Shown here: positions 10,017-48,568 of the stretch, piece after piece
Numbering within the stretch: the first letter of the stretch is position 1
Layout: each line of letters begins with the position of its first letter
Assembly (NCBI RefSeq): GCF_037975245.1
Contig: NC_092573.1
Location: forward strand, 8,048,501-8,112,500
DNA length: 64,000 nucleotides
Source: Apostichopus japonicus
Taxonomy: Eukaryota > Echinodermata > Holothuroidea > Aspidochirotida > Stichopodidae
Direction of reading: 5' to 3'
The notes under the pieces: generated by a model
What the model was told of the DNA's origin: nothing
Databases searched by the model: none
Seen by the model: the letters and a program-made list of their open reading frames with translations, nothing else
Program-made: the position numbers and the translations under genes

Positions 10017-10098
10017 ATGGATCGTCTGTTCCTGACGCTGATCCAGCTATGTGCGCTTACGTCTTTTACTGGGGCTTGTCTATTCAGAGATGCCAGTC
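10017..10098 (+). CDS. Gene 1 exon 1: signal peptide
   Basis: The ATG at 10017 opens a classic signal peptide: charged MDR, then a hydrophobic core ending near TGA at residue 20. The donor is C|gtaagt and the exit phase is 1. This is the only ATG giving a secretory leader in phase with the M1 exon. Confidence 0.8.
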
Positions 10099-13000
10099 GT
10101 AAGTTGTGTTTTAATGTGTTAATCAGTTAATCGAGTATGCAAAATTTACGAAGAATAGTAGTGTTACTTGGAAGATCTGCGCTATGTGACTTTCCATGAG
10201 TTAATGATTGCTAGAAAGAAGGATATGCTGTATAACATGTACTTAAAGTGAGAGGTCTGTTTCATATTTGTTTGAAGTTTTTCATTTTGATCTAGTATAG
10301 AACGCGGAGTGGGCAAGCTAAAAAGGAAATGAACTGACAATTGACGTTTGCCCATACAAATCCTGCTAAGAACATTTCAATCTTGCGTTTTCGTCTGATT
10401 TGTCATTTGTAAATCCCTATGCGCATATAACAGAAAAAATCAACTTTCCTTGAAAAAGAACAGCTAGATAACTGAATAATCGAAATTTTGCTAACTATAA
10501 GATCAACAAATTATAGCATAGACCTCATTTTAATCTGTAATAAATGTTGTGTAAACATTTTGTCATGAAATTTACATGCTAATGTGTATGGCAAGAAGTT
10601 CCACAGGGTGTTATGTTTGTAACAGAGGACACAGTTAAACTCTTGAGTTATGTCAAACTAAGTCGATATTTTGGCCACGGCAGCCTAAAACAGTGTTCTG
10701 TGGACATCATGAGACTTTGTCTTATCTTAATCGATGAACAAAAAGTTCGAAGTATACCCTAACCAGTGACAGATACAGATATTCTCCATAGAAGCAACGG
10801 GAGGGGGTAGGTGGGGGTGGAAAAACGATTTTCTATAATTCAGTTGTCACATGATTCACCGAGGTGTTTATTTCCCAACAATTACAAAAAAAATGTAATT
10901 GAATGTATAATGACTGTACAGAAATACTCTTTTTGAAGTCTAAAAGTTTTATGTATGTTCTTTAGCAGGTCGTGAATATGTTGTTTGCGATCGTCTGCCA
11001 TGAGTTCTATAACGATACTTAATTATTTACTCAACAAATGAACGAAATGAATCTATAAATCATTGGACTAGATTAAATATCAGAGACTTTAGCGAGTTAA
11101 GGAGGGGATGGGGTGGACTTTCATGATATCATCACATAATTAGAAATCAGAAAACGGGATGAATTGTATATCAAGCATAAAGTCAACTAATGTTGTATAT
11201 TTGAACGTCTGAAAGATTTAATGAGATTCATATTAACATCCCAAAATGGATTTCTCCAAAATAATCAGGAACTGTACATTGGTTTATATGAAGTTGGGAT
11301 AGGGCAGAGCAGTTGGCCTACGTCTACTGGTGTTTTCTACAAATAAAATTCGACGAAAGACCGTAACTCTTGTGGTAAAATACATGTATTTCAAATATAG
11401 GGCGGAAGGTGTTCTCCTTAACGTTTTTAGGCCATGTTGTAATTAAACCCAGTCATGATTTCCTTTAGTGTGGAATTGATTAATATGCATGGTAGACCAT
11501 GCATAAGCCCCCACCCACGCACCTCCACCCCCTATCTCCTTACACCCATTCAATGTTTTACCCGCTTTTACTTTAAGACTAAGAATGGGAAAGCATATTT
11601 TTCTATACTATAAATAAGAAGAACATTAAAAGGGATAGTGTTTTGAAATCATTTCAGTAGATACATTGGTACGTACATATCATAGACTTATTTAACTAAT
11701 AACAGGAATGCGATCATCTCTGCTGATTCATGCATTAACTTGTAAGGAAGTAATATCTGCTAACGCGAGTTGCTTTGTCCTAAATGTCAGTAAAACTTTA
11801 AATTCCGCTAACACGTCAGGATAACATTTTGAAATTGTGTCGTTATGTTTCCGTATTTGTACATATCTAAATTAATAGCTTAATCTGAGAATGCCAATAT
11901 TCTTAAAGGTTATAAACCACGACATTAAATGTTAAGAGGAAACCGCACTGGGAAGTTATAAACAACGAACAAGCAATTTTTGGCTAGAACGAGATTCGAA
12001 CCAGTGACCTCAGAATTTAAACTGAGCTATTTATCCAAAATATTTAGTGGTGATCCCTTACATCCATTTCTTCGATGGGCCTTACAAATGTAACAACTAA
12101 GAGCTGGCTAGCTCAATTGAAATTATCACTTGTATGCCTTAGGTGACTGGTTCTATCCACTTTTCTTTTGCTCTTTTCCCATTTGAAATCTACTCTGAAA
12201 TGCAATAAACTACGACCATTTATTTCGGGAAAAAATTATGTGGGTTCACTGTTTCATGTGGTCCTGTTCTGGTGCAATTGTGTAATATCTTTGCGCAAAC
12301 ATTACATCATGTTAGACAAACAGTTTGTTATCAAATCTGAGTATACACATCGAATTCTTTCGCTGTATGGTTCAGTCAATGATCGTCTATAACAATATAT
12401 ATATATATATATATATATATATTTCACCTTTTTCTAGGTTGCCCTGCTAAAAGTCCCCTCGTATTTGGAGGACGAATTCAGGCACAGGATCCGGATGATC
12501 CTCTATGGGAGAATGGAAGAAAGTTGTTTGTATTTCAGACACCGCCCTCGAACACTCACAGCCACTTAGGGTCATCACGGCGTTTTAAAGTAAGAGGGTC
12601 GAGAGGCGTTATTCGAATTGCATCAAAGAGCTGCGCCAGATCGGGTGAGGGATCGAATGTTTGCCCCGTCACCCTTCCGTCGGATTTGCCATGTCTTCTG
12701 CAGGGTAGTGGTGCATGCAGCTCGGGTAAGCTGGCGGTACTGCAGCTTTTTCATTCCTACTCATTACCTCCGTTACCCTACATGCACATTATTCACTTTC
12801 CCACTAAATAAGAAGGAACCAAACTGAGCTCACATGGTCATCACTTAAATTCCGTTCGTTTTCACCCTCTTATCAAACTTTCTCAATGAGTAATTTGATT
12901 ATCTAGCCTGAGTGGGGGAAAGGCGGTGCAGACAATGGTTAGCCATCAAATCATTGTGTTCTAAAATCATACTTTTGGAAATAGTTATGAATCTGGTCCA

Positions 13001-48300: not shown

Positions 48301-48568
48301 GAATATGTTACTGGTAATACCAATAACGTGTATGTGTTCAAACTACATAGCATTAATTGTATAGGTAACATTGAAGAATAGTGGATTATGGGCGACGCAA
48401 CACATTGAAACGTGATCAGTCACATTAACAAATGAAACTAACATATTTCAGGATTATAAAACAAGAAGAAAACTCACTTTTTTGAGAACAAGGACTAGCA
48501 GAATACGTCCCGGCGAGCATGATAATAGCGATCACGAAACCGAGGGTAGCCATCTTGCTTGTTCCCAT
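35228..48568 (-). CDS. Gene 2: membrane M-FN3 receptor-like protein with tyrosine-rich tail (7 coding exons)
   Basis: The coding exons 48568-48478, 43961-43725, 41259-41159, 40697-40496, 37419-37329, 36556-36507 and 36351-35228 join in phase (1896 nt, 631 residues plus stop). Residues 1-24 are a signal peptide, 31-109 the M module, 110-210 one FN3 domain, about 215-239 a single membrane helix, 240-257 a very basic juxtamembrane strip, and 258-631 an acidic cytoplasmic tail. The tail has 17 tyrosines, about nine in acidic contexts such as IYDETEI, VYDDTVV, NYDDVDI, LYDETEV and IYDEPDL, and ends in YELI. These look like SH2-docking sites for Src-family kinase signalling (inference). It has no kinase or phosphatase domain, so it would signal through recruited partners. 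It shares M with gene 1. I do not recognise an orthologue. Confidence 0.83.
36507..36556 (-). CDS. Gene 2 exon 6: basic juxtamembrane exon
   Basis: A 50-nt exon (phase 2 in, 1 out) reading [17 protein letters not shown], flanked by TTTTCTTCAG and GTAAAG. It is a positive-inside stop-transfer strip directly after the membrane helix. Confidence 0.8.
37329..37419 (-). CDS. Gene 2 exon 5: transmembrane helix
   Basis: Phase 1 in, 2 out. It encodes a 25-residue hydrophobic segment starting [15 protein letters not shown] and ending FLLFF before Arg-Arg. The acceptor is TTTTTTTCAG and the donor GTATGT. The equivalent region is deleted from copy A. Confidence 0.88.
38079..38284. mobile_element. Foldback MITE, copy 2
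   Basis: A second, shorter member of the 33646-33956 family with ends CAGCCGATTCACACAGAGA and TCTCTGTGTGTATCGGGTG. It is inside the intron between gene 2 exons 4 and 5, in the stretch missing from copy A. Confidence 0.85.
40496..40697 (-). CDS. Gene 2 exon 4: FN3 second half
   Basis: Phase 0 in, 1 out. It encodes [32 protein letters not shown] and [12 protein letters not shown], a textbook FN3 second half. The acceptor (CTTTAATACAAAG) has a poor pyrimidine tract, and a (TA)n array starts 26 bp upstream in the transcript sense. Confidence 0.85.
40723..40791. repeat. (TA)n microsatellite
   Basis: About 34 uninterrupted TA units in the intron just upstream (gene sense) of gene 2 exon 4. Confidence 0.97.
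40935..41080 (+). repeat. tRNA-derived SINE-like element (+)
   Basis: The head resembles a tRNA-Glu type sequence: TAGCCTAGTGGTTAGGGTG (A box), then GGCCCGGGTTC and ATCCCGG split by a 13-bp AT-rich insert in the B box. It is followed by a tail shared with the element at 41520-41684 (CACTGTTCTGGATTTTCCAA). It is inside a gene 2 intron. Confidence 0.75.
41159..41259 (-). CDS. Gene 2 exon 3: FN3 first half
   Basis: Phase 1 in, 0 out. It encodes [20 protein letters not shown] and then [14 protein letters not shown], with donor GTAAGC. It joins exon 4 to read HILRYE-VRYWQ, the C to C' strand region of FN3. Confidence 0.87.
41497..41932 (-). mobile_element. SINE/(TA)n insertion with 15-bp direct repeats
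   Basis: A minus-strand tRNA-like head (TTCGAATCCCGGCTAAGGCTGG, revcomp of about 41613-41634) and the shared CACTGTTCTGGATTTTCC tail sit next to a long (TA)n block. The block is bounded by AAGGAAACACAAGTT at 41482-41496 and again at 41933-41947. Copy A has a single such site (about 5087-5100, one mismatch), so this is an insertion after the duplication or a copy A empty allele. Confidence 0.75.
41676..41909. repeat. (TA)n array with CTTTATAT interruptions
   Basis: More than 200 bp of TA units broken by CTTTATAT and TTTCTATATATCG spacers. Both strands give meaningless Ile/Tyr open frames. Confidence 0.97.
43725..43961 (-). CDS. Gene 2 exon 2: M module
   Basis: A 237-nt phase 1-1 exon. It starts RCRTRHRL after the joined codon, has a GSGIGKVW strand-like segment and ends [16 protein letters not shown]. 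It aligns with M1 and M2 of gene 1 over the initial Cys, the G-rich strand and the C-terminal cysteines, but is about 17-20 residues shorter. Confidence 0.82.
45099..46165. mobile_element. Foldback element with tandem-repeat core (hAT-like ends)
   Basis: The outer ends are imperfect inverted repeats: CAGAGGCGGATTC with CAGGGTGTG on the left, and CACACCCTGAGTCCGCGCC on the right. An inner perfect 14-bp inverted pair is CAGGGGCGTAGCGA at 45141-45154 and its complement at 46003-46016. The core is a tandem array (45316-45976). There is no transposase. The end sequence resembles hAT-type non-autonomous elements, but no clear 8-bp target duplication was seen. Confidence 0.65.
45316..45976. repeat. 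Five-copy tandem repeat, ~138-bp unit
   Basis: The landmark CAAATTTGACTTAAAATAT starts at about 45316, 45450, 45588, 45695 and 45833, giving spacings of 134, 138, 107 and 138 bp. Units contain CCAAAGGGGAGGGGGACAC, facing CCCCTCCCCTTAGACC (a local hairpin), and TTCCAGATCCGTCGGCAAAT. Confidence 0.9.
46306..46860. repeat. 39-bp minisatellite, ~14 units
   Basis: The unit is CAACCCTCCCTCCATTGTTG plus TGGCATACTGGTGGCATAC. Some units lack half of it. Because 39 is divisible by 3, frames stay open on both strands for up to 200 codons; these are artefacts of the repeat, not genes. It is in the first large intron of gene 2. Confidence 0.95.
48478..48568 (-). CDS. Gene 2 exon 1: signal peptide
   Basis: The ATG at 48568-48566 gives [20 protein letters not shown] and then TYSA, a clear signal peptide. 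An internal ATG five codons later would also work. The donor is A|gtgagt, phase 1, and it joins to the M exon to give SQKR-C, parallel to DASR-C in gene 1. Confidence 0.8.

Follow-up and report, generated by a model that had tools for sequence, protein, structure and literature searches.

A receptor-like gene facing a large secreted FN3 gene in Apostichopus japonicus: a convergent pair that looks like a unit of tandem duplication

The stretch of DNA analysed here (the window) comprises 64,000 nucleotides of the holothuroid Apostichopus japonicus (NCBI RefSeq assembly GCF_037975245.1, contig NC_092573.1, below C13, positions C13:8048501-8112500), and holds two genes that face each other. Gene 1 lies on the + strand, starts at 10017 and is predicted to encode a secreted protein built largely of FN3 units, and gene 2 lies on the - strand, starts at 48568 and has the layout of a membrane receptor. 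Coordinates given without a chromosome are window positions throughout. In both gene models the splice sites were picked by hand, guided by the reading frame and by likeness to FN3, and the models are transcript-free.

Gene 1 extends from 10017 to 31182, with 20 exons that join in frame across GT-AG introns into 1751 residues and a TAA stop at 31180-31182. Under the splicing model, exon 1 (10017-10098) encodes a signal peptide, exon 2 (12438-12725) a module which we call M1, exons 3-7 (13684-19331) four FN3 units, with exons 4 and 5 forming one unit, exon 8 (19596-19892) a second module, M2, and exons 9-20 (20324-31182) eleven more FN3 units, with exons 13 and 14 again forming one. By exons this amounts to 15 FN3 units, and Pfam reports 12 fn3 stretches at E<=1. 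Most introns (17 of 19) are in phase 1, while the other two are in phase 0 and both fall within FN3 units. The product carries 27 N-glycosylation sequons, and its one hydrophobic segment (residues 4-23) is the signal peptide. Downstream of the stop, the + strand from 31183 to 35200 was searched for a phase-1 membrane exon, a candidate being defined as an AG preceded by at least 60% pyrimidines together with 20 residues of mean hydropathy of at least 2, and none was found there. As its exon structure and secretion signal present it, the predicted product of gene 1 is a large secreted FN3 protein.

Gene 2 (48568-35228) has seven exons that join in frame into 633 residues. Exon 1 (48478-48568) encodes the signal peptide, exon 2 (43725-43961) the module M3, a probable remote relative of M1 and M2, and exons 3 (41159-41265) and 4 (40496-40697) the two halves of one FN3 domain, which Pfam reports as the one fn3 stretch at E<=1. 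These are followed by a membrane helix in exon 5 (37329-37419), a basic juxtamembrane segment in exon 6 (36507-36556) and a Tyr-rich cytoplasmic tail in exon 7 (35228-36351). Besides the signal peptide, the protein has this one membrane helix. The tail (exons 6 and 7, 391 residues) contains 17 Tyr, and Y[DE][DE] motifs occur in it six times, compared with 0.78 expected by shuffling, a number that none of 5000 shuffles reached. It fits neither the pattern used for the immunoreceptor tyrosine-based activation motif nor the one used for its inhibitory counterpart; Pfam finds no immunoglobulin domain in gene 2, leaving M3 and one FN3 as its ectodomain, and no phosphatase domain in either gene model. 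The large first intron contains repeat arrays at 46261-46981 and 45350-45990, as seen by eye.

Much of an earlier, preliminary description of this stretch is borne out by these models. It had placed the two genes in convergent orientation at coordinates that coincide with the two start codons; it had described gene 2 as a signal peptide, M, FN3, a membrane helix and a Tyr-rich tail, which is what the seven-exon model, the hydropathy and the tail yield; and it had described gene 1 as secreted M-FN3 arrays free of an anchor, leaving at issue whether gene 1 might splice to a membrane exon, for which the downstream search produced no candidate.

The same description also took both genes to use the same M module, and here the outcome is mixed. 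M1 and M2, both within gene 1, are clear homologues (BLASTP 1.8e-6, a score reached by none of 2000 shuffles). M3 is at best a remote relative. Its local alignments to M1 and M2 are not significant, with scores reached by 301 and 131 of 2000 shuffles, and its global alignments score at a level reached by 16 and 48 of 2000. Against a profile of nine sequences, M3 obtains P=1.5e-4, the next exon of the window to be reported having P=0.05, and the alignment begins at the first Cys and is 59 columns long. Of 20,000 plain shuffles 36 reached the score, and of 20,000 that kept the Cys fixed 30 did (19,570 and 19,419 shuffles were reported, respectively), for a shuffle-based P of about 0.0015-0.002. 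This profile leans on M2, since its nine rows comprise seven of the M2 type, namely M2 itself with six copies from the cluster, against two of the M1 type. It is unlikely, though well worth keeping in mind, that M3 is no M module at all and that the likeness is a coincidence in a Cys- and Gly-containing exon placed after a signal exon. Such a coincidence would agree with the failed local tests, with the hhalign probability of 6.7% for M3 against a profile of two M sequences, with a scan of 11,810 frames in which M3 has E=6.2 and lies inside the noise by score, and with AlphaFold2 models too poor to use (predicted local distance difference test 39 for M3 with M1/M2 and 36 for M2 with M1); the nine-sequence profile result and the long alignment from the first Cys argue against it. 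Remote homology of M3 to M1 and M2 is probable, and a shared module likely, short of being demonstrated.

The preliminary description further relied on the modules being joined at the same R-C codon in the same phase. The phase 1 junctions are indeed there, but they say little: the shared junction and phase are weak evidence because 17 of the 19 gene 1 introns are in phase 1 and because M2 is entered as M-P-T-C, without R-C. Searched singly in Pfam, M1, M2 and M3 hit no family up to E=5, and in a sequence search of the PDB the best values for M2 (E=0.27) and M3 (E=0.76) are at chance level; a scan of viral contigs with M1 and M2 found no relative. Elsewhere in the genome M3 has one other match, at E=0.8. 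On these searches, M is a small Cys-containing ectodomain module that the searched libraries do not place in any named family.

By matches in the 672-Mb genome (35 contigs), gene 1 belongs to a tandem group of about ten relatives on C13 (match counts are lower bounds). M2-like exons have at least eight matches, all on the + strand of C13 at 7.72-8.07 Mb. M1 has at least ten, among them those of three long genes on the + strand, namely gene 1 itself (C13 8060940) and copies at 7983113 (87%) and 8027134 (84%); the others include a broken copy at 7878484, matched in two pieces, and five remnants, all partial, that adjoin short forms. Between 7.70 and 7.90 Mb there are four short forms (S1-S4) and one broken long copy, and further short forms lie at 7.92 and 7.97 Mb. 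All 23 of the short-form exon matches that were checked are stop-free.

These relatives bear on whether the gene models are wrong and what is called gene 1 supplies just the ectodomain of a longer, membrane-anchored protein. FN3 exons do occur near phosphatase exons in this genome, and the model of gene 1 was built from sequence free of transcripts. However, in S1 a stop follows directly after the last FN3, as it does in gene 1, and the frames of S2 and S3 are of equal length; together with the lack of a membrane exon candidate downstream of gene 1, this makes such an error very improbable.

The tail of gene 2 has six matches in the genome, which fall at three sites, all on the - strand of C13. 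The first (C13 8083731-8084849) is gene 2, with an open frame, whereas the second (C13 8050224-8050970, or window 1724-2470) and the third (two pieces 5 kb apart, C13 8009965-8010246 and 8015478-8015810) are interrupted by stops. Each is preceded, on the + strand, by genome matches to exons 18-20 of a long gene: those of gene 1 (C13 8077184-8079679), of a second copy (C13 8043857-8046198) and of a third (C13 8001987-8005939), respectively. The gaps between match ends, from long gene to tail, are 4052, 4026 and 4026 bp, and no tail match follows the broken long copy at 7.88-7.90 Mb. Because three long copies face tail sequence across about 4.0 kb, the unit that was duplicated looks like the convergent pair, rather than one gene having been copied from the other. 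Both dead tails carry the same deletion, down to its breakpoints, as well as a TAA in frame and a changed 3′ end, and this shared deletion and stop suggest that the damage either preceded the second copying or was spread by gene conversion. With one of three tails open, gene 1 need not have a gene 2 in every unit.

What is left of gene 2 in the second unit lies at the very start of the window, where positions 1-6395 on the - strand hold a decayed copy of the 3′ part of gene 2, including the tail remnants, which matches pieces of 33116-42928 at 76-85% DNA identity. The similarity stops short of the M3 exon, and neither M3 nor a signal exon was found in this copy. Beside its broken end, at 7018-9087 on the - strand, there are reading frames that match RVT_1 and GIY-YIG at scores under the curated cut-offs, which we take to be a likeness to a Penelope-type element.

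The facing arrangement of a receptor-like and a secreted gene thus recurs as three convergent units, but the proposal of the preliminary description that the pair itself arose by local duplication of one gene from the other is not supported. Both genes are ordered as signal exon, M and FN3, which could speak for a derivation of gene 1 from gene 2 or the reverse. However, the FN3 of gene 2 is 18-35% identical to those of gene 1 over stretches of at least 30 residues (the best match being 23% over 95 residues), its intron is placed differently from those in the split FN3s of gene 1, and M3 is remote, so that a local common origin has hardly any likelihood. Outside the locus, the FN3 of gene 2 has two weak matches, both on C2 (E=0.008).

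Gene 1 also has relatives outside the cluster. The matches to exons 18-20 of gene 1, 54 of which were listed, are located in the C13 cluster (39), elsewhere on C13 (2) and on other chromosomes (13), and 11 of these last 13 are on C2. Nine of the 11 have a tyrosine phosphatase exon 6-26 kb downstream of them on their own strand, seven different exons being involved. The same holds for 2.8% of randomly chosen places, for 4.9% of places displaced by 50 kb-1 Mb and, when the opposite strand is considered, for 0 of the 11. Tyrosine phosphatase exons were taken from 548 candidates, 150 of which were scored and listed. By these matches, the nearest relatives of the gene 1 FN3s that were found on other chromosomes adjoin receptor tyrosine phosphatase genes, and among the PDB entries matched best by FN3s tried from both genes are receptor-type tyrosine phosphatases, titin and contactins. 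Among the 150 phosphatase exon matches listed, 103 are on C2 (1-32 Mb) and 15 on C16 (14-21 Mb); judged from such matches, the tyrosine phosphatase exons on C2 and C16 are a large local expansion.

It may well be, at a little under even chances, that the two genes are neighbours that share no function: gene 2 would have been a passenger when a secreted FN3 family with targets elsewhere, e.g. the numerous receptor-type tyrosine phosphatases encoded in this genome, was duplicated. The death of two of three gene 2 tails would fit this, as would the position of nine of the 11 C2 relatives just upstream of phosphatase exons. Against it, the constant convergent arrangement across about 4 kb and the probable M link would both become accidents of history.

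The explanation that we favour, tentatively and with less than even confidence in the whole, is of a phosphotyrosine-docking receptor next to a family of secreted FN3 proteins, in which a shared history, and perhaps a shared function, keeps the pair together. The product of gene 2 would be a single-pass receptor that meets its ligand through M3-FN3, and its tail, once phosphorylated on Tyr by an outside kinase, would offer the repeated Y-[DE]-[DE] sites for SH2 adaptors to dock. The two genes would have become neighbours, after which the convergent pair was copied tandemly twice; the partial tail deletion and the stop may have arisen in one receptor copy ahead of the second round of copying, unless gene conversion spread the damage. 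The secreted family would most likely serve as (i) ligands, (ii) co-ligands or (iii) decoys of either gene 2 or phosphatase-type receptors, via contacts of FN3 or M. That the products of gene 2 and gene 1 relate as receptor and soluble partner is putative, and mere neighbourhood is about as likely.

Three known systems invite comparison. Receptor-type protein tyrosine phosphatases of the PTPRF/LAR and PTPRD type have FN3 arrays in their ectodomains, and both genes here carry FN3, but gene 1 lacks a membrane helix and a phosphatase, the tail of gene 2 lacks a catalytic domain, and M has no significant match in Pfam or the PDB; moreover, the link between the phosphatase exons and the C2 FN3s related to gene 1 is one of proximity. 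Nephrin is a single-pass receptor with an FN3 adjoining the membrane. Gene 2 resembles nephrin-like adhesion receptors that dock Nck in being single-pass, in its membrane-proximal FN3 and in the repeated Y-D-x-x sites of its tail, but differs in that no Ig domain was found and in that two of its 17 Tyr (in YDDV and YDEP) fit Y-D/E-x-V/P, the Nck SH2 consensus as given in PMC8187788. In Botryllus, PMC8129030 describes a secreted gene and a membrane gene (cfuhcsec and cfuhctm, FuHC) that adjoin each other, 227 bp apart, in one recognition locus. The likeness to gene 1 and gene 2 is that of linked secreted and membrane genes, across different phyla, and is drawn here from one assembly. It is improbable that the cluster on C13 serves echinoderms as a recognition locus, in which gene 2, as the one tyrosine-signalling receptor, would read fast-evolving, linked secreted M-FN3 proteins copied with it as convergent pairs, by means of the family-less module M.

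The exon structure, the secretion and anchor signals, the repeated paired arrangement and the damage to two gene 2 tails are established at the level of sequence, and the pairing claim is strengthened because the convergent units repeat and the M link is probable. Several points weigh against a receptor and its soluble partners. The claim is weakened because two receptor copies are dead, leaving one open tail of three beside many relatives of gene 1. The similarity of M3 to M1 and M2 is borderline, its low hhalign probability included, and the tail is sparse in sites of the Nck consensus. The other long copies are known in part; the one at 8.03 Mb gave no M2 match in the genome search, and the match at 8002557 in another long copy contains two stops. 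The ratio of nonsynonymous to synonymous substitution (dN/dS) between gene 1 and the 7.99-Mb copy is 0.42 (exons 6-10, 522 codons; M2 alone 0.58), weak proof of constraint because the broken long copy also gives 0.49; among the short forms at C13 7.70-7.87 Mb it is 0.78-1.13 in four comparisons, which indicates weak constraint or diversification. Finally, the evidence for the favoured explanation is that of sequence.

Among the papers listed by a literature search, no description of the C13 locus or of module M was seen, which is not proof of absence. If the products interact, the locus would offer a compact and testable case, in an invertebrate deuterostome, in which a receptor and its soluble partners were multiplied together as linked convergent pairs and all receptors but one were lost. 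The locus also suggests that tandem duplication can take a linked pair as its unit and still leave the two members to different fates, and M adds an ectodomain module that the searched libraries do not name.

Some minor observations were made elsewhere in the genome. In mitochondrial COX1, all nine AAA codons align with Asn of mammalian COX1 and TGA is read through as Trp, which is the code of echinoderms and flatworms, and the ND4L and COX2 frames after it agree, by eye, with the gene order of echinoderms. On C23, at 15.072-15.081 Mb, FN3 matches of equal or near-equal score follow one another in steps of about 508 bp, and represent a tandem exon array. On C29, five COX1 pieces are present at 14745-31219 besides the one on C35, possibly a rearranged or nuclear copy.

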